A stretch of DNA of 64,000 nucleotides, taken from IMG/VR virus record IMGVR_UViG_3300046352_000068, positions 1 to 64,000 of that record; one strand, given 5' to 3'. The notes under the pieces are model-generated. The model was given only the letters and a program-made list of their open reading frames with translations, was not told the DNA's origin and ran no database searches. The position numbers and the translations under genes are program-made. Shown in pieces: positions 1,472 through 63,349 of the stretch; position 1 is the stretch's first letter; every line of letters starts with the position of its first letter. The stretch comes from a virus.

Positions 1472-1735
1472 TTACAACACCACCACCACATCTTTCTCAG
1501 TGATGACCGTATATAGGTCCTCATTGATGCGGATGGAGTGACCGGCCGCACGATCAAAGTAGATAAATGCCCCAGGCTTGATGCCGTCTACTGTTGAACC
1601 AGCAGCAACGACTGTTGCTTTTTTGTATCTAACTTCTCCTGCGTCAGAGACAGTCATGATTAACCCCCCAGCCGACTTTGTTTCTTCGGCTTGAGGCACT
1701 ATTAAGATATTTTTTCCGATTACGTGAAATCCCAT
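1472..1735 (-). CDS. groES: Phage co-chaperonin GroES (Cpn10)
   Basis: An 87-residue 10-kDa chaperonin that would cap the GroEL ring. It shows the N-terminal beta-strand (IGKNILIVPQ), the mobile loop with the hydrophobic tripeptide (SAGGLIM, about residues 21-27), a KPGAFIYFD turn and the closing LYTVITEKDVVVVL strand. It is slightly shorter than typical GroES (about 97). An in-frame upstream ATG (1837) would add 34 residues unrelated to the family, so ATG 1735 is chosen. It lies 127 bases downstream of groEL, opposite to the usual bacterial groES-groEL order. The spacer carries palindromes that may control it separately. Confidence 0.9.
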   Translation of the reverse strand: MGFHVIGKNILIVPQAEETKSAGGLIMTVSDAGEVRYKKATVVAAGSTVDGIKPGAFIYFDRAAGHSIRINEDLYTVITEKDVVVVL

Positions 1736-1862: not shown

Positions 1863-3404
1863 CTACATCTGTCTTACGTTAGTAATGACTGTCTCCGTTG
1901 ATAGCAAGGTCGTTGCTACGCTGACAGAATTTTTTAGGGCTTCTTTAGCCACTTTCGTCGGGTCAATAATACCAACGCTCATCATGTGGCACATCGCCCC
2001 ATTAGACACGTTAATACCAACACCCTCCTTAGTCAAGATGTCGCCATCCATCTCAAGCCCTGCGTTCGACAATATCTTGCTCATCGGAGCAAGCATCGCC
2101 ACCTTCAGTATCATCGCACCCTTGTTCTCGATCTGAATCTTAGCCGCGATATCCTTCAAGGCCACGCCACCACCTGGCAGAATCCCCTCCTCCAAGGCAG
2201 CCTTCACCGCACACACCGCATCGTCCACCCGGTCCTTCTTCTCCTTCTGCTCAATGTCTGAGTTTGCTCCCACCTTAATCACACCAACACCACCACCTAA
2301 GTTCGCAATACGTTCCTTCAAGAACTCCTTCTCGATCGCTGAGCTCTCAACAGCTAACTGCTCTTGTAGCTCCTCGACTCTCTCCTCACCTGCACCCTCT
2401 GCTCCAAAAATAATCGTATTGAACCTGCCACTCACCACCTTACCTGCTCTTCCTAGGTCGTCGATGCTTGCCATCAACAGGTTATCACCCGTCTGCTCAC
2501 TGAAGTACTTAGCACCCGTAGCGGTCGCAATGTCCTGCATGATCTGGTGACGCTTATACCCAAACGATGGCGGGATGATCGTGCACACCTTCAGGCCACT
2601 CTTAATCTTGTTTACGTTCAATGAGTTTAGAGCGTTCTCCTCTAGCTCACCAATAATCAATAGCGACTTCTTGCCTTGCAAAATAAACTCAAGCATCGGC
2701 AGGATATCGTTCAAGTTCCCGATCGGCTGGTCAGTCACCAAGATGTATGGCTTGTCCATCACAGCCTCTTGCTTCTTGTGGTCTGTCACGAAGTACTTGC
2801 TCGTGTAGCCTCTGTCTATCTTCATCCCACTGACCACCTCAGAGTAGGTCTCAGCCGTTGCTGAGTTCTCGACCGTCACCACACCACTTAGACCAACCTG
2901 GTTATAAGCATCAGCGATAATCTGTCCAATCTCCGCGTCACCATTGGCCGAGATAGTCGCCACGTCGACTAGCTTCTCAGGGGTAATCTCTGTGGACATC
3001 TCCGTCAACTCATCTGCTACCTTCAACGCAGCCTCTTGAACATCTCTCAATACTTGAGTGACATTGTCCTCTGGTGTTATCAAGTCCGTTGCCGCATGGA
3101 TAATGGCTTGAGCTAGGACGACGGTCTGACTGGTTCCGTCACCAGCTGAATTCGCTGTCTTCTCAGAGGCTTCTCTAACGATCATAACCGCTAGGTTCTC
3201 TGTCGGGTCCATCAAATTAATGCCTTTGCTTACGCTGACGCCGTCTTTTGTGACAATAATGCCACCAACATGTTGGTCCGACTCCATCAGCACCGTTCTT
3301 CCACGAGCCCCCATTGTAGAACCAACCGCATTGGCTAGTGTATCCACACCTCTTATTAACTTCTCTCTAGCGGTCAATCCGCTTTCTACTTGCTTGACAA
3401 TCAT
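1863..3404 (-). CDS. groEL: Phage chaperonin GroEL (Cpn60)
   Basis: A 513-residue group I chaperonin that would form the ATP-driven folding ring. Equatorial motifs are intact: GARGRTVLM near 32-40, TKDG with the ATPase Asp near 54, the phosphate loop GDGTS near 88-92, and LEEGILPGGGVAL near the second catalytic Asp region (VDDAVCAVKAALEE). It lacks the Gly-Gly-Met C-terminal tail of bacterial GroEL and is about 30 residues shorter. It starts 3 bases after the stop of the upstream 162-residue gene and precedes groES. A likely role is folding the capsid or other large virion proteins during infection. Phage-encoded GroEL is uncommon but known. Confidence 0.95.
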   Translation of the reverse strand: MIVKQVESGLTAREKLIRGVDTLANAVGSTMGARGRTVLMESDQHVGGIIVTKDGVSVSKGINLMDPTENLAVMIVREASEKTANSAGDGTSQTVVLAQAIIHAATDLITPEDNVTQVLRDVQEAALKVADELTEMSTEITPEKLVDVATISANGDAEIGQIIADAYNQVGLSGVVTVENSATAETYSEVVSGMKIDRGYTSKYFVTDHKKQEAVMDKPYILVTDQPIGNLNDILPMLEFILQGKKSLLIIGELEENALNSLNVNKIKSGLKVCTIIPPSFGYKRHQIMQDIATATGAKYFSEQTGDNLLMASIDDLGRAGKVVSGRFNTIIFGAEGAGEERVEELQEQLAVESSAIEKEFLKERIANLGGGVGVIKVGANSDIEQKEKKDRVDDAVCAVKAALEEGILPGGGVALKDIAAKIQIENKGAMILKVAMLAPMSKILSNAGLEMDGDILTKEGVGINVSNGAMCHMMSVGIIDPTKVAKEALKNSVSVATTLLSTETVITNVRQM

Positions 3405-3407
3405 AGA

Positions 3408-3896
3408 CTACATTTTATTTTTTATGAAACTAACTTTTTTAATCCGACTTGTTTGGTTTCCTGCCGTGATAAACTTCTTACCCTGTAAATTCTTCTCAAT
3501 CTTGCATCGTCTGCATCTCACAAAATAGTTCGCTATCTCGTTCTTAAACGTTCGACCAACATTGTACTGCAAAACCGGGTTTTCGTTATTCACCGCATCA
3601 GCCACATCTGTTAGTGCATATCCCGTGCCATACTCCTTGAAGTAATTGTCACAAGCTCTGTACAACTCAAATATCGTAGCAGGAACGCTGAACATGTACT
3701 GATCCGTAACTATTATGTAATTACTGATGCCAACAAACTCTGACACTATGTCATCCATTTGAATCCTGAACTCAGCAGGACTAATCAGCGGAGCACCACT
3801 GGTTACATAATCCATGTACAAGTCCTCCCACTCAACCACTAACCCCTTAGACAATACACCCTCGATGTCTAATCTTTTTACTAACCAATCTTTCAT
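3408..3896 (-). CDS. Hypothetical 162-residue protein leading the chaperonin operon
   Basis: No family is recognised. The N-terminal 60 residues are acidic and rich in Trp/Tyr, and the C-terminal 45 are strongly basic with a CRRC pair (YFVRCRRCKIEKN) that could bind metal or nucleic acid. ATG 3896 follows a pseudoknotted leader ending in a U-rich tract. The stop is 3 bases before groEL, so translation is probably coupled. By position it might be a regulator of, or client for, the chaperonin, but this is only a guess. Confidence 0.7.
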   Translation of the reverse strand: MKDWLVKRLDIEGVLSKGLVVEWEDLYMDYVTSGAPLISPAEFRIQMDDIVSEFVGISNYIIVTDQYMFSVPATIFELYRACDNYFKEYGTGYALTDVADAVNNENPVLQYNVGRTFKNEIANYFVRCRRCKIEKNLQGKKFITAGNQTSRIKKVSFIKNKM

Positions 3897-3899
3897 ATA

Positions 3900-3981
3900 A
3901 AAATAAACCCGAAGATCTGAGGGTAGTGGACCTCTTCACTTCGGGGGTTTTAATAAGTTCTTTGATTCGGCCACTACTCCG
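3900..3981 (-). ncRNA. Pseudoknot leader, copy d (chaperonin operon)
   Basis: On the minus strand, stem 1 GTAGTGG (3977-3971) pairs with CCACTAC (3929-3923), and stem 2 CCCGAAG (3945-3939) pairs with CTTCGGG (3914-3908). The order S1, S2, S1', S2' defines an H-type pseudoknot with junctions of 25, 9 and 8 bases. A T-rich tract (TTTATTTTTAT) follows directly and leads into ATG 3896. Stem sequences differ from those of the other copies while the layout is kept. It could be a small RNA ending at the U-tract, or a translational/attenuation control element. Confidence 0.6.
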
Positions 3982-3987
3982 ACACCA

Positions 3988-3995
3988 CAAAGATA
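3988..3995 (-). promoter_or_regulatory. -7 box TATCTTTG for leader d
   Basis: The minus strand reads TATCTTTG (plus CAAAGATA), a perfect TAnnTTTG match, 10 bases upstream of stem 1 of the pseudoknot. The surrounding TTATTATCTTTG is identical to the box of copy c at 44938. A -33 TTG is only weakly placed (24-base spacing). Confidence 0.5.
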
Positions 3996-10390: not shown

Positions 10391-10575
10391 AAAAGAAGAA
10401 GGGAGAACCAGAATTAGAAGTAAGTGGAGTATTGATTATCAAGACTAGCAAAGGAAATATCAGGCAGGTTATGCTTACTGAAAGAGAGGCTGATGCTGTA
10501 TTATCGCTTGCCAGGGCAATGCACTCCGGACAACTTAGGGTTAGTGAAAAAGTTTTAGAAGGTATAACATTTTAA
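10387..10575 (+). CDS. Hypothetical 62-residue protein
   Basis: Lys-rich N-terminus, a beta-hairpin (SGVLIIKTSKGNIRQVMLT) and a helix (EREADAVLSLARAM). It resembles small basic phage proteins of unknown role. Followed by an 11-base gap before the next gene. Confidence 0.6.
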   Translation: MKKKKGEPELEVSGVLIIKTSKGNIRQVMLTEREADAVLSLARAMHSGQLRVSEKVLEGITF

Positions 10576-12432: not shown

Positions 12433-12845
12433 TGGAGACTATATTTAAAGAAGGTGATAGAGTATTCTGCTATAATCTTGGGGGTTGGGGTGAGGTAATT
12501 AAAATATTTAATGATGATAATCCTTTCCCTATTTATTGTTCTTTTGACTCAGGAAACAGCAATTTTACTAAAGAAGGCAGGTTTTATATGGATGGTCCAC
12601 CAATATTATCCTTCACCGAATATACCCTCGAAGGATTCAGCCAAGAGCGACCTGAGCCATTGCCTAAGAAAGGTCAGATTGTTTGGGTAAGAGATTGGGA
12701 AGGGCAAAGTTGGTTTATTGCTCATTATGTTCAAAAATCAAAGGGTGGATATTATGTAACACATAGAGACCCTCTTAGTATACATTTGAATGGAAGTACT
12801 TATAGATATTTAACAACCAAAAACCCATACGCAAATGAGCAATAA
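12432..12845 (+). CDS. Conserved hypothetical protein (SH3-like repeats)
   Basis: A 137-residue protein with two beta-rich modules, GDRVFCYNLGGWGEVIKIF and GQIVWVRDWEGQSWFIAHY, resembling tandem SH3/KOW-like barrels. Between them is LSFTEYTLEGFSQERPEP, a phrase common in Bacteroidota phage proteins found beside recombination genes. Function unknown. It overlaps both neighbours. Confidence 0.6.
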   Translation: METIFKEGDRVFCYNLGGWGEVIKIFNDDNPFPIYCSFDSGNSNFTKEGRFYMDGPPILSFTEYTLEGFSQERPEPLPKKGQIVWVRDWEGQSWFIAHYVQKSKGGYYVTHRDPLSIHLNGSTYRYLTTKNPYANEQ

Positions 12846-26094: not shown

Positions 26095-26150
26095 TATTAT
26101 AATTTTAACACAGCACTGTATTATAATTTTAACACAGCACTATATTATAA
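26095..26150 (+). repeat. 24-base tandem repeat upstream of RNA ligase
   Basis: Two full units of 24 bases (26095-26118 and 26119-26142, one difference) and a third truncated after 8 bases run straight into the start codon. The unit is TATTATAATTTTAACACAGC plus four bases. It fills the whole nrdA-ligase gap and may hold repeated binding sites or reflect slippage. Confidence 0.8.
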
Positions 26151-26704
26151 TGAAGAAGATAAGTACACTATTTAGAAAGAATCCAGATAAACTTGGATTG
26201 GTTATCGATGAAATAGATCCTCAGAATACGTGGGTGTCAGAAATAGATGTTGTAGCGACACAGAAGTTTGATGGCACAGCATGTGCTATTATTAACGGAG
26301 AGTTGTATAAGCGATACGATGCAAATAAAGGTAAGGTTGCTCCTGATGGAGCAATCCCTTGCCAAGAACCAGATGAAGTCACAGGTCATCATCCACACTG
26401 GGTAAAGTGTGATAGATATAAGCCAGAAGATAAATATTTCTTTGAGGGGTTTGACGGAATGCCACCTTGGGAAAGAGTGTATGGTACTTATGAATTGTGT
26501 GGGCCAAAGATAAATGGTAACCCTGAAAATTTGTCAACCCACATGTTATTGAAACACGGGCTATTTAAAATTGGGTTATCCTCAACGGACTTCTGGTACT
26601 TAAGGGGAAGATTAAAGAAACTTGATATAGAAGGAATAGTTTTTCATCATCCTGATGGACGCATGTGTAAGATACGTAAGTCTGATTTTGGTCTTAAAAG
26701 ATAA
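26150..26704 (+). CDS. RNA ligase family nucleotidyltransferase
   Basis: A 184-residue minimal ligase core. Motif I QKFDGTACAI (about 45-54) gives the adenylated Lys; motif III-like GTYELCGPKI (near 113-122), motif IV LDIEGIVFHH (near 163-172) and motif V CKIRKSDFG (near 174-182) complete the nucleotidyltransferase pocket. There is no clear C-terminal accessory domain. It would seal broken RNA (for example tRNA cut by host defence), as known for phage RNA ligases. Ordinary DNA ligase is less likely given its size. Confidence 0.8.
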   Translation: MKKISTLFRKNPDKLGLVIDEIDPQNTWVSEIDVVATQKFDGTACAIINGELYKRYDANKGKVAPDGAIPCQEPDEVTGHHPHWVKCDRYKPEDKYFFEGFDGMPPWERVYGTYELCGPKINGNPENLSTHMLLKHGLFKIGLSSTDFWYLRGRLKKLDIEGIVFHHPDGRMCKIRKSDFGLKR

Positions 26705-28353: not shown

Positions 28354-28361
28354 TATTTTTG
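28354..28361 (+). promoter_or_regulatory. -7 box TATTTTTG for leader a
   Basis: TATTTTTG (TAnnTTTG) lies 1 base after the stop of the phosphoesterase gene and 14 bases before stem 1. A degenerate -33 (TTTCG) occurs 20 bases upstream. Confidence 0.5.
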
Positions 28362-28367
28362 TTGTAA

Positions 28368-28447
28368 TTATAACTGTTGCAGAGTTAAATTATAAAAACA
28401 TTAGCATTGGAGAGTAAGGCTGCAACCCTGAAATCCAATGCTTTTTT
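28368..28447 (+). ncRNA. Pseudoknot leader, copy a (HNH gene)
   Basis: Stem 1 GTTGCAG (28376-28382) pairs with CTGCAAC (28420-28426). Stem 2 AGCATTGGA (28403-28411) pairs with TCCAATGCT (28434-28442). All pairs are Watson-Crick. The interleaved order gives an H-type pseudoknot with junctions of 20, 8 and 7 bases, close to copies c (23, 10, 8) and d. TTTTTATT follows and leads to ATG 28451, so stem 2 plus the U-tract would also read as an intrinsic terminator. Confidence 0.65.
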
Positions 28448-28450
28448 ATT

Positions 28451-28996
28451 ATGGAAGAAATATTTAAAGACATAGCTGGATACGAAGGCCACTATATGGT
28501 GAGTAATTTAGGAAATGTAATTTCATTAAAATACAATAAAGTTCGTAAAATGAAATTAAGGTTAGATCAACATGGTTACCCTACGATATGCCTATGGAAA
28601 GATGGTAAAAGCACATTTCCTAAAGTACACAGATTGGTATATGAAGCATTTATTGGTCCGAGAGGAGACAGTATGACTATAAATCATATTGATTATGATA
28701 GAGCAAATAATAATGTAAATAATTTAGAGTCAGTCACATATAGGGAAAATTCTTCACACAGAGCCTTAAGGGAAAATAAATCATCTAAATATCTTGGCGT
28801 GGACTATAAACGAGGCGTATGTAAATGGGTTTCCAGGATAACATTTGAAGGAAAAAGATATCACTTAGGTATATTTAAAACAGAAATAGAGGCATTTGAA
28901 GCTAGAATGAAGTTTGAAAAAGAAAACAATATTATTAATAAATATTTTAGTAATTTTACAGAAATATATGAAAATGACAGTACAAGAATACGTTAG
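28451..28996 (+). CDS. HNH homing endonuclease with AP2 domain
   Basis: A 181-residue free-standing homing endonuclease. NUMOD4-like start (DIAGYEGHYMVSNLGNVISL), HNH core VHRLVYEAF then NHIDYDRANNNVNNLESV, and a C-terminal AP2-type DNA-binding domain (SKYLGVDYKRGVCKWVSRI, then GIFKTEIEAFEAR). Expressed behind the copy-a pseudoknot leader. Its final 23 bases contain the start of the Dps-like gene. Confidence 0.88.
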   Translation: MEEIFKDIAGYEGHYMVSNLGNVISLKYNKVRKMKLRLDQHGYPTICLWKDGKSTFPKVHRLVYEAFIGPRGDSMTINHIDYDRANNNVNNLESVTYRENSSHRALRENKSSKYLGVDYKRGVCKWVSRITFEGKRYHLGIFKTEIEAFEARMKFEKENNIINKYFSNFTEIYENDSTRIR

Positions 28997-43643: not shown

Positions 43644-44335
43644 TATTGTTGTTTTTGATCAGTGTAAGCCTCTTCTGCTCTAGCGGCTGTAACCACATCC
43701 ATCTCTCTAATACTAACGCCAGCATATTCACAAATTTTAACGACTAACTTAGGGAAGTCGGATATAGCCAACTCAAAATCTTGGTAGTCATTTGCCGATT
43801 GATTGAACAAAGGACTTCCGTTCACCACCGTATAAGTCCACTTCGGATCAGCTGGGTAACGAACGTAATAGATATTAATGTTATCTGTAATGGTAGCAGG
43901 ATACACAGCTACCTGAGTCCCTTGCATCACATACGTAGGATACGTTTCTGTGGGTGCTGTCAGATTGGAATTAAGCAAATAATGTAATTTACCTTGGTCC
44001 ACATGAGTAACTTCTTTACCATTATAATAGAGTACGTTTAATAAGAAAAAGTTTTCGGGTAAGTCAAACTTGAAGTTAACTCCGTTGTATACCAAGTCGG
44101 TATTCTTGGAGAATGCGTCGATTGTTTGATCTAGCTGCTTTGTAATATCAGAATATCCGCTAGTCTCCATACCCTTAAGGTCTGAAATCTTAGCTTTCTG
44201 GAAGTCGTAAAAATATTGTTGAAACAACTCAAGCTGAGCTTGCTTAGCAAAGCTATTGAACTCTTCTGGCGTAATGAAGCCGTTTCGCTCTTTAGCGACA
44301 ATGTTGAGAACAGTGTTGTATACCGAATTTACCAT
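43643..44335 (-). CDS. Head-tail connector/adaptor (230 residues)
   Basis: It begins VNSVYNTVLNIVAKERNGFI and has TPEEFNSFAKQAQLELFQQYF (near 22-42), a phrase typical of the neck connector in crAss-like phages, then beta-strands with LPENFFLLNVLYYNG. The start codon shares its first base with the last base of the HNH stop codon (44335), so expression is coupled to the HNH gene. Confidence 0.7.
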   Translation of the reverse strand: MVNSVYNTVLNIVAKERNGFITPEEFNSFAKQAQLELFQQYFYDFQKAKISDLKGMETSGYSDITKQLDQTIDAFSKNTDLVYNGVNFKFDLPENFFLLNVLYYNGKEVTHVDQGKLHYLLNSNLTAPTETYPTYVMQGTQVAVYPATITDNINIYYVRYPADPKWTYTVVNGSPLFNQSANDYQDFELAISDFPKLVVKICEYAGVSIREMDVVTAARAEEAYTDQKQQ

Positions 44336-44835
44336 TATAAATACTTATTTTGTATTTCTTTATGATACAAAAATAAGCATAATTTTTCGTATGCTATTTG
44401 TTCATCATTAAAGATGCCTATATACACTTGCTTGCCATCTATATATATTTGCGCCCTCCATTTATTCCTATCCTTATCCCATGTTATATTGGGATATTTA
44501 CTAGATTTTTTCTTCATAGAACTCCTGTGCACACAGTTCTCTCTAGTAGAAACCCACTCTAGGTTATTTATGTAATTATTTAATTTGTTACCATCTATAT
44601 GGTTTACGCACATAGAATCATATTTTCCCAAAAAACTTTCAGCAACTATTCTATGCACTTTTTTGCAAGTTTTTTTATAGTTTACAGTAAATGCGGCAGA
44701 CAAATAACCATCTTTTGTTATAAATGATTTAAGAGTTTTTCTTCCACTCTTTAGTATCCTTCTTAATTTGCCATAATTACTCACTTCGTAGAATGATTCA
44801 AATCCAAGAATTGGCACCCATATTTCATTTTCCAT
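44335..44835 (-). CDS. HNH homing endonuclease with AP2-like domain
   Basis: A 166-residue protein: NUMOD4-like FESFYEVSNYGKLRRI, HNH core VHRIVAESF then VNHIDGNKLNNYINNLEWV, and AP2-like YPNITWDKDRNKWRAQIYI ending NKYL. It sits between two neck genes, behind the copy-c pseudoknot leader, and its stop overlaps the next start. Confidence 0.88.
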   Translation of the reverse strand: MENEIWVPILGFESFYEVSNYGKLRRILKSGRKTLKSFITKDGYLSAAFTVNYKKTCKKVHRIVAESFLGKYDSMCVNHIDGNKLNNYINNLEWVSTRENCVHRSSMKKKSSKYPNITWDKDRNKWRAQIYIDGKQVYIGIFNDEQIAYEKLCLFLYHKEIQNKYL

Positions 44836-44841
44836 ATAAAA

Positions 44842-44931
44842 AAATAAATCCTACAAAATCCACTGCATCTCACCTCAGCTTCATTTATAGGACTATTTAT
44901 GTTTTCAGTTACGTAATGTGAGATGGTAACT
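44842..44931 (-). ncRNA. Pseudoknot leader, copy c (HNH gene)
   Basis: Minus strand: stem 1 CATCTCAC (44925-44918) pairs with GTGAGATG (44873-44866). Stem 2 AGTCCTATAAA (44894-44884) pairs with TTTGTAGGATT (44857-44847), 11 bp with two G-U. Junctions are 23, 10 and 8 bases. TATTTTTTTAT follows and leads to ATG 44835. Loop 2 (TGAAGCTGAG) resembles loop 2 of copy d (TGAAGAGGT). Confidence 0.65.
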
Positions 44932-44937
44932 ACAATG

Positions 44938-44945
44938 CAAAGATA
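44938..44945 (-). promoter_or_regulatory. -7 box TATCTTTG for leader c
   Basis: TATCTTTG on the minus strand, 12 bases before stem 1, with the same TTTATTATCTTTG context as copy d. It directly follows the end of the 247-residue gene. No clear -33 TTG. Confidence 0.5.
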
Positions 44946-62684: not shown

Positions 62685-63215
62685 TTATAGATACTTATTG
62701 ACTATGCCATTATCTCTTTCATATTTGCACCTAGCAGCATAAGCATCTTCTTCGGTTAAGAAATGGCCAATTGTTTTTTGTTTTTGATTAATACATATTG
62801 AAGCCGTAAATCTTTGCTTTGCTTTTATCCAACTAACACCCGTGTATTTGCTTGTTGTTTTGGTTTTATCAAATCGGTGGCAATTATTTTCTTGCATTGA
62901 TACCCATTCTAAATTAGAATAATGGTTGTTTAATCTATTACCATCTAAATGGTTTACAAAGTCACGACCTTCTTCTCTCGGTATAAATGCTTCAGCAACT
63001 AATCTATGAATAGAGTACTTAATTGGTTTTCCTCCATTTCTTAGTGAAATTCTAGTGTAACCAACATTACTAATAAAAGGAGTTAGCTCCTTTCCTGTTA
63101 TAGGATATATAGATCCATCAGATCTCTTATATTTTCTATCCAATGATTTAACTTTTCCACTTTCGCTAACTATAAAGTGTCCTTCATAGCCAACAACATC
63201 TTTCCAATCTTCCAT
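62685..63215 (-). CDS. HNH homing endonuclease with AP2 domain
   Basis: A 176-residue protein from ATG 63215; the longer frame to 63233 reads into the leader. NUMOD4-like GYEGHFIVSESGKVKSLDRK, HNH core IHRLVAEAF then VNHLDGNRLNNHYSNLEWV, AP2-type KYTGVSWIKAKQRFTASICI ending NKYL. It follows the copy-b pseudoknot leader and lies between lysis and fibre genes. Confidence 0.88.
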   Translation of the reverse strand: MEDWKDVVGYEGHFIVSESGKVKSLDRKYKRSDGSIYPITGKELTPFISNVGYTRISLRNGGKPIKYSIHRLVAEAFIPREEGRDFVNHLDGNRLNNHYSNLEWVSMQENNCHRFDKTKTTSKYTGVSWIKAKQRFTASICINQKQKTIGHFLTEEDAYAARCKYERDNGIVNKYL

Positions 63216-63219
63216 ATAA

Positions 63220-63312
63220 AAACAAAACCCCAACGTGTAGGACCGTCGGGGTTGTTTAGTTTTTCAACTATTTAAAACGAATATTAGGTCCTACACTAAC
63301 ACTCGCTTTATT
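63220..63312 (-). ncRNA. Pseudoknot leader, copy b (HNH gene)
   Basis: Minus strand: stem 1 GTGTAGGACC (63296-63287) pairs with GGTCCTACAC (63244-63235), 10 perfect pairs. Stem 2 AACCCCGAC (63253-63245) pairs with GTTGGGGTT (63234-63226), 9 pairs with one G-U. If all pairs form there are no bases left between stems, so some end pairs must open. TTGTTTTTAT follows and leads to ATG 63215. Loop 1 holds GAAAAAC as in the other copies. Confidence 0.6.
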
Positions 63313-63318
63313 ACATCA

Positions 63319-63349
63319 CAAATATAAAAATAAATTACTTAAGAACCAA
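63319..63349 (-). promoter_or_regulatory. Promoter for leader b
   Basis: On the minus strand TTG (63349-63347), a 20-base spacer and TATATTTG (63326-63319) match the Bacteroidota promoter, 22 bases upstream of stem 1. It partly overlaps the 3' end of the spanin gene. Confidence 0.6.

Follow-up and report, generated by a model that had tools for sequence, protein, structure and literature searches.

What precedes the chaperonin genes of this Bacteroidota virus, whether it is a genuine structured RNA, and what it could do to the genes behind it are the questions raised by a leader on the minus strand at 3995-3897 of the window (i.e. the whole stretch of DNA analysed, 64,000 bases out of a 68,255-base virus record). 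The original prediction, made from the sequence alone, had described this leader (copy d) as one of four, possibly five, in the window that share a pseudoknot architecture with changing stem sequences, and had taken its position ahead of groEL/groES as a sign that the element is not merely part of HNH genes.

Layout and fold of the leaders in the window

Every element that had been named for copy d (promoter box, stems S1 and S2, U tract and ATG) was found where it had been predicted, on the expected strand. The inventory of stems stood for S1 and S2 but had missed hairpin A and the inner helix of hairpin B; the presumed 20-30-base loop with an A-run was re-read as the 3' arm of hairpin A followed by an A/U-rich linker. 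The features are as follows.

3995-3897, minus: copy d leader, whole
3988..3995, minus: promoter box TATCTTTG, putative Bacteroidota-type -7 box (TAnnTTTG), read from the sequence
3967..3982, minus: hairpin A, TCGG (3982-3979) / CCGA (3970-3967) with loop AGTAGTGG (3978-3971), where the RNA 5' end is expected
3971..3977, minus: S1 5' strand GTAGTGG, inside loop A
3946..3966, minus: A/U-rich linker ATCAAAGAACTTATTAAAACC
3908..3945, minus: hairpin B, outer stem S2, CCCGAAG (3945-3939) / CTTCGGG (3914-3908)
3938-3935 and 3918-3915, minus: internal loop of hairpin B, TGAA / AGAT
3934-3931 and 3922-3919, minus: inner helix of hairpin B, GAGG / CCTC
3923..3929, minus: S1 3' strand CCACTAC in loop B, partner of 3971-3977
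3897..3907, minus: U tract TTTATTTTTAT, immediately 3' of hairpin B, reaching the ATG
3408..3896, minus: 162-aa ORF, first gene of the unit behind copy d
1863..3404, minus: groEL (Cpn60)
1472..1735, minus: groES (Cpn10), starting probably at ATG 1735 rather than at TTG 1837 as in the ORF list

Read along the minus strand, the order is TATCTTTG, a spacing of five bases between box and hairpin A, TCGG-A-GTAGTGG-CCGA, linker, CCCGAAG-TGAA-GAGG-T-CCACTAC-CCTC-AGAT-CTTCGGG, TTTATTTTTAT and ATG. The nested minimum free energy fold of 76 bases consists of exactly hairpin A and hairpin B with its inner helix (-20.5 kcal/mol); since its z-score, only -1.6, is unremarkable, the case for an RNA rests on comparison and not on energy. 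The 162-aa protein had no Pfam, PHROG or phage match, and relatives of its ORF were seen only in two near-identical contigs. Beside groES, at 1323-1394 on the minus strand, Rfam reports a tRNA (33.5 bits) that ARAGORN did not find.

The 8-nt loops of hairpins A and B are complementary over 7 bp, which makes copy d a kissing-loop complex. An H-type pseudoknot, with no extra stem around S1, was not borne out: both S1 strands sit in closed hairpin loops, the 5' strand being closed by hairpin A (100% paired, 4/4 pairs covarying) and the 3' strand lying in the apical loop of hairpin B, whose inner helix is 93% paired. As is characteristic of a kissing-loop RNA, the apical loops of two hairpins pair by at least six Watson-Crick pairs, kept by compensatory change. 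By sequence and covariation, the family fold is hairpin A (loop of 7-16 nt) and hairpin B, with loops joined by 7-8 Watson-Crick pairs and the U tract directly 3'; from the outside inwards, hairpin B consists of an outer stem (5' arm C-rich, 3' arm G-rich), an internal loop of GA or loop-E-like type, a short inner helix and the apical loop.

Four leaders were confirmed in the window (copies d, b, a and e), while the possible fifth was not found there. Copies b, a and e each precede a NUMOD4/HNH_3 gene.

28354..28450, plus: copy b, box TATTTTTG, hairpin A AACT-GTTGCAG-AGTT, hairpin B AGCATTGGA-GAGTA-AGG-CTGCAAC-CCT-GAAA-TCCAATGCT, U tract; leads the NUMOD4-HNH gene 28451-28996
44836..44945, minus: copy a, box TATCTTTG, S1 CATCTCAC/GTGAGATG, S2 AGTCCTATAAA/TTTGTAGGATT; leads the NUMOD4-HNH gene 44335-44835
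63216..63326, minus: copy e, box TATATTTG, S1 GTGTAGGACC/GGTCCTACAC, S2 CCCCGAC/GTTGGGG; leads the NUMOD4-HNH gene 62685-63215

By a score for paired interleaved stems the four copies took ranks 1, 2, 4 and 5 among the upstream regions of 114 ORFs (all ATG ORFs of at least 60 aa in the window); rank 3 (27006, plus strand) looks like an ordinary terminator. Eleven further genes of the window have a box a short way upstream and show no such structure, and the last 12 nt ahead of the ATG contain 30% T in other window genes versus 9-10 T out of 12 in leader genes. Copy e is supported by its own fold (z-score -6.5) and by relatives at loci L039 and L040; its linker carries an extra hairpin, TAGTT-GAAA-AACTA.

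Together with L033, L026, L039 and L040, the window leader at 63326-63216 (minus strand) forms a subclass with a long hairpin A. Copy e, L033 and near-identical relatives have a GAAA-loop hairpin in the linker (TCAAG-GAAA-CTTGA is the second form) and a hairpin B without the GA internal loop. Elsewhere in the window, near the ribonucleotide reductase gene, the C-terminal part of the protein encoded at 26150-26704 (plus strand) matches RNA ligase 1 (RLIG1, E 8e-8).

Covariation and model searches

HNH genes were gathered by protein similarity alone, and their upstream regions were read afterwards. A kissing-hairpin descriptor gave a score of at least 48 in 28 of 74 non-redundant HNH upstream regions (about 40%), with differing sequences; the same score was reached in 2 of 2220 dinucleotide shuffles and in 2 of 88 control upstream regions from an over-filtered set (88 kept of 466), both of which, on inspection, lay ahead of HNH genes. 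Interleaved stems are thus not equally good by chance.

In ten leaders, copy d among them (model R1, alignment A3), the kissing helix and hairpin A were 100% paired, with changes on both sides at 5/7 kissing pairs and 4/4 hairpin A pairs. The covariation score was 0.616, compared with 0.259 for shuffled alignments and 0.08-0.24 for slid registers. The outer stem was only 64% paired in this alignment, an undercount due to a slip of one or two bases in the MAFFT register; taken singly, every leader forms it.

For the rebuilt model, R2, we used 21 matches from outside the window; it contains no S1 pairs. Searched against 317 kb, which takes in 80 HNH loci of bacterial genomes, R2 recovered the four window copies at ranks 1-4, with E-values of 7e-9 (d), 7e-4 (b), 0.015 (a) and 2.3 (e); copy e is not significant by R2 alone. 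In 39 phage records there were 45 matches, and further ones were seen in isolates. Although R2 is blind to S1, kissing pairing of at least 7 bp was observed in 29 of 31 checked matches (nearly all with E <= 0.01, window copy a being at 0.015) versus 70 of 1240 shuffles (5.6%). We could parse 56 elements, 49 of them non-redundant, among which 42 different S1 sequences were counted and 44 elements had a kiss of 7 or 8 pairs. A motif AAGAA[A/C]TT was present in 10 of 48 family linkers versus 0.9 in shuffles.

The claim that a shared architecture with changing stem sequences marks a real RNA family is therefore upheld, by strong covariation and by S1 pairs recovered unseen. The element is also absent from Rfam: with Rfam 15 the whole window gave only a tRNA, 19 loci gave no match at E <= 0.5, and copy d alone reached at best 17.4 bits versus a gathering score of 80.4. 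In the open-access literature we found no paper describing an HNH-associated or phage RNA motif of such form. We conclude that the leader is an undescribed cis-acting RNA family of Bacteroidota phages, of a kind, structured phage leaders and attenuators, that is already known.

Distribution, downstream genes and the origin of copy d

Many copies were found by R2 in Flavobacterium, Polaribacter, Cellulophaga and uncultured phages. The isolates with the leader are Flavobacterium phages 11b, FCL-2, FCV-1.01 (two copies) and tooticki6-1 (two), Polaribacter phages P12002L/S, Freya_1 (two) and Danklef_1, and Cellulophaga phage phi19:1; it was not found in phages crAss001 and B124-14. The 80 HNH loci of bacterial genomes, mostly Firmicutes, contained no real element, and in searches of about 400 + 41 + 41 bacterial genomes, each search scoring only 10-101 candidates, the element was rare, absence not being implied.

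Weak R2 matches without S1 were judged false (L239, L240, L241 and Cellulophaga phages phi18:1, phi13:2 and phi38:1), L115 (E=4.9, at a bacterial HNH locus) is an ordinary terminator, and match L356 in G030 (E 0.001) did not parse into a kissing pair.

Most copies stand ahead of HNH genes. Others precede BT4734-like primase genes (L222, L237), replication initiation or helicase-loader genes (L223 in P12002L, L191), a 70-aa gene opening the tooticki primase operon, and small genes without assigned function; in Freya_1 one leader lies ahead of an MBL-fold gene behind recT and the other ahead of a regulator before a replication gene.

With the phage GroEL as query we collected 77 loci. In most close relatives a 97-105-aa gene is followed by groEL, with a plain promoter and no leader. 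In L285 and L347, by contrast, a leader and a NUMOD4-HNH gene are inserted between the 105-aa gene and groEL, the HNH stop overlapping the groEL start; both leaders align with copy d over its whole length, with different stems and loops. In the window the orphan 162-aa ORF occupies the place of the HNH gene ahead of groEL. Comparison of these loci suggests that copy d may have arrived as part of an HNH cassette, with subsequent loss or replacement of the HNH gene; alternatively, it could be a captured leader. Since relatives carry leader and HNH gene at the same locus, copy d alone is weak evidence for use outside HNH genes. That the element is not merely part of HNH genes holds by virtue of the replication-gene copies in other phages, on which its independence has to rest because copy d may be a cassette remnant.

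The chaperonin operon of these relatives has been entered repeatedly by homing endonucleases: in L347 (2033-5420) and L285 (1-2968) HNH genes lie both ahead of groEL and between groEL and groES, overlapping the start of the next gene. For the HNH gene between groEL and groES the model reported no kissing leader.

A second, different structured leader was seen ahead of NUMOD4-HNH genes of Bacteroidota phages. It has a three-way-junction-like fold (GCGGA..TCCGC, TTTAG..CTAAA, AAACC..GGTTT), a loop GCGTTTA that pairs with one or two downstream TAAACGC copies, and a U tract past the closing stem. The loci are L059 (about 1390-1500), L049, L090, L098, L021 (Polaribacter phage P12002L, HNH gene at 1501), L032, L046, L055, L092, L063, L029 and L051; there was no Rfam match in six of these loci or close relatives.

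Possible function and comparison with known systems

In the non-redundant set the distance from box to hairpin A is mostly 2-8 nt, with a peak at 5, which would place hairpin A at the very start of the transcript. At the other end, T occupies 76-93% of positions 1-7 3' of hairpin B; tails longer than about 10-12 nt turn A-rich, with the U tract staying on hairpin B. Outer-stem 3' arms contain 176 G versus 47 C, and 5' arms 135 C versus 70 G. The mean minimum free energy is -16.3 kcal/mol for hairpin B and -10.4 kcal/mol for the loop-loop duplex. In combining a stable hairpin with a U-rich tract immediately 3' of it, the leader has the anatomy of an intrinsic terminator; an automatic terminator scan listed none at copy d, because it allows loops of only 3-8 nt. 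The distance from match to start codon ranges from 0 to about 98 nt, and the U tract remains on hairpin B throughout. In most copies the ATG lies within about 15 nt of the U tract, often 8-12 nt past hairpin B; it is far from the leader in L222, L228 and phi19:1. Between U tract and start codon, L228 (tooticki6-1 12740-12778) and L274 (phi19:1 10461-10494) have a further conserved stretch, TTTAATAGTTRTMGGTAATCTTWAAACC, in common.

The leader probably controls whether the downstream gene is read. The best reading, to which we give about an even chance, is that of a promoter-proximal transcription attenuator controlled by the kissing contact; it is preferred because the U tract keeps its place next to hairpin B at every distance to the ATG, and because hairpin B with its U tract close behind the promoter has terminator anatomy. 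The RNA would begin just past the putative TAnnTTTG promoter, and hairpin B with the U tract, acting as intrinsic terminator, would end many transcripts at a length of about 75-90 nt, close to the start codon or short of it. How efficiently hairpin B closes would depend on its contact with the 5'-terminal hairpin, and RNA polymerase would pass once a change occurs in this contact or in a factor that binds the kissed structure. The downstream gene (a homing endonuclease, a replication gene or the 162-aa/groEL/groES unit) would thus be kept low or delayed until read-through. Read-through must occur, as groEL lies behind the leader in L285 and L347, where a strong unconditional terminator would cut it off; only partial or regulated termination fits. 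Two points speak against attenuation: proximity of ATG and U tract in most copies would suit control of ribosome access too, and a terminator alone needs no kissing loop, so that the central feature is left unexplained by termination. No alternative antiterminator pairing was found for the leader. The kissing helix is under selection and must serve some purpose beyond the needs of a terminator: it would set termination or else bind a factor via the internal loop of GA or loop-E-like type.

Kissing loops in a compact fold are typical of riboswitches, and the conserved GA or loop-E-like internal loops and the linker motif resemble a binding or docking site. One could thus think of a leader acting on translation or RNA stability, possibly with an aptamer, in which the kissed structure keeps ribosomes from loading or shields the 5' end, and is opened by a ligand or protein at the internal loop and linker. 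The frequent 8-12 nt between hairpin B and ATG would agree with this; the distant start codons of L222, L228 and phi19:1, at which the U tract still stays on hairpin B, and the lack of a common metabolic theme among downstream genes do not, and we consider such a role unlikely. A somewhat smaller chance is left to antitermination in the manner of HK022 put, where kissed hairpins behind the promoter would bind RNA polymerase and make it ignore later terminators. Copies ahead of replication genes and within gene runs fit this idea, as does the anatomy shared with put, a pair of stem-loops of about 70 nt immediately past phage early promoters, but neither kissing loops nor a U tract appear for put in the available part of the cited account (PMC9378689); furthermore, the leader often precedes a single HNH gene, and a U tract joined to a G-rich 3' arm is unexpected for an antiterminator.

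A stable trans-acting small RNA of about 80 nt, with the downstream gene read by leakage only, appears improbable: promoter and terminator-like end are both there and the loops do vary between copies, yet the parsed copies lie directly ahead of a gene on the same strand, and fast loop drift with internal complementarity kept points to a contact in cis rather than to a fixed target. That the paired segments are recognition or homing sites of HNH enzymes at the DNA level is very improbable, even though most copies lead HNH genes and leader plus HNH behaves like an inserted cassette, given covariation with full sequence drift, a fixed place behind the promoter, the single-strand logic of loop-loop pairing and U tract, and the copies ahead of non-HNH genes.

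A bolder form of the attenuator reading, which we regard as doubtful, is a protein-free, RNA-only switch wide in Bacteroidota phages, in which the kiss between first hairpin and terminator loop would decide whether RNA polymerase passes; endonucleases would carry switch and promoter in a mobile cassette and could leave it ahead of host-takeover genes such as groEL. Little is known of how Bacteroidota phages control gene expression, and a kissing-loop terminator ahead of replication genes and selfish endonucleases would, if true, be a common control point. As the unlisted family occurs in cultivable isolates (Flavobacterium 11b, FCL-2, FCV-1.01; Polaribacter P12002L, Freya, Danklef; Cellulophaga phi19:1), it is directly testable, and the orthogonal 7-bp loops are natural parts for RNA circuits.

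Several known systems resemble the leader in part. HEARO/OMEGA RNAs of IscB are also structured RNAs ahead of an HNH gene; the leader is much shorter, has no IscB, occurs ahead of non-HNH genes too and has no Rfam match. Type III toxin-antitoxin RNAs (ToxI) have, like the leader, a promoter, a pseudoknotted RNA and a terminator ahead of a gene; the ToxI fold differs, and in place of tandem repeats before a ToxN/AbiQ-type toxin we observed a single unit with HNH, replication or unassigned genes downstream. Riboswitches with loop-loop contacts (lysine, purine, guanidine-II) are compact leader RNAs with kissing loops, the lysine class having a loop-E motif as well, whereas the leader has only two hairpins, no Rfam match at a useful score and no shared metabolic gene.

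The put RNA of HK022 (putL/putR) acts in cis, measures about 70 nt and has two stem-loops; it lies past early promoters, putL immediately after PL (PMC9378689). The accessible part of that account describes no loop-loop pairing, U tract or Bacteroidota-type promoter, unlike the leader (PMC9378689), and the hosts differ. With its two stem-loops behind a phage promoter the leader comes closest to put in place and size.

In idea, the closest systems are the attenuators of the pT181 type, 5' leaders in which an intrinsic terminator is controlled by the kissing of hairpin loops. Their partner loop is supplied in trans by a separate antisense RNA, while in the leader both loops belong to one transcript.
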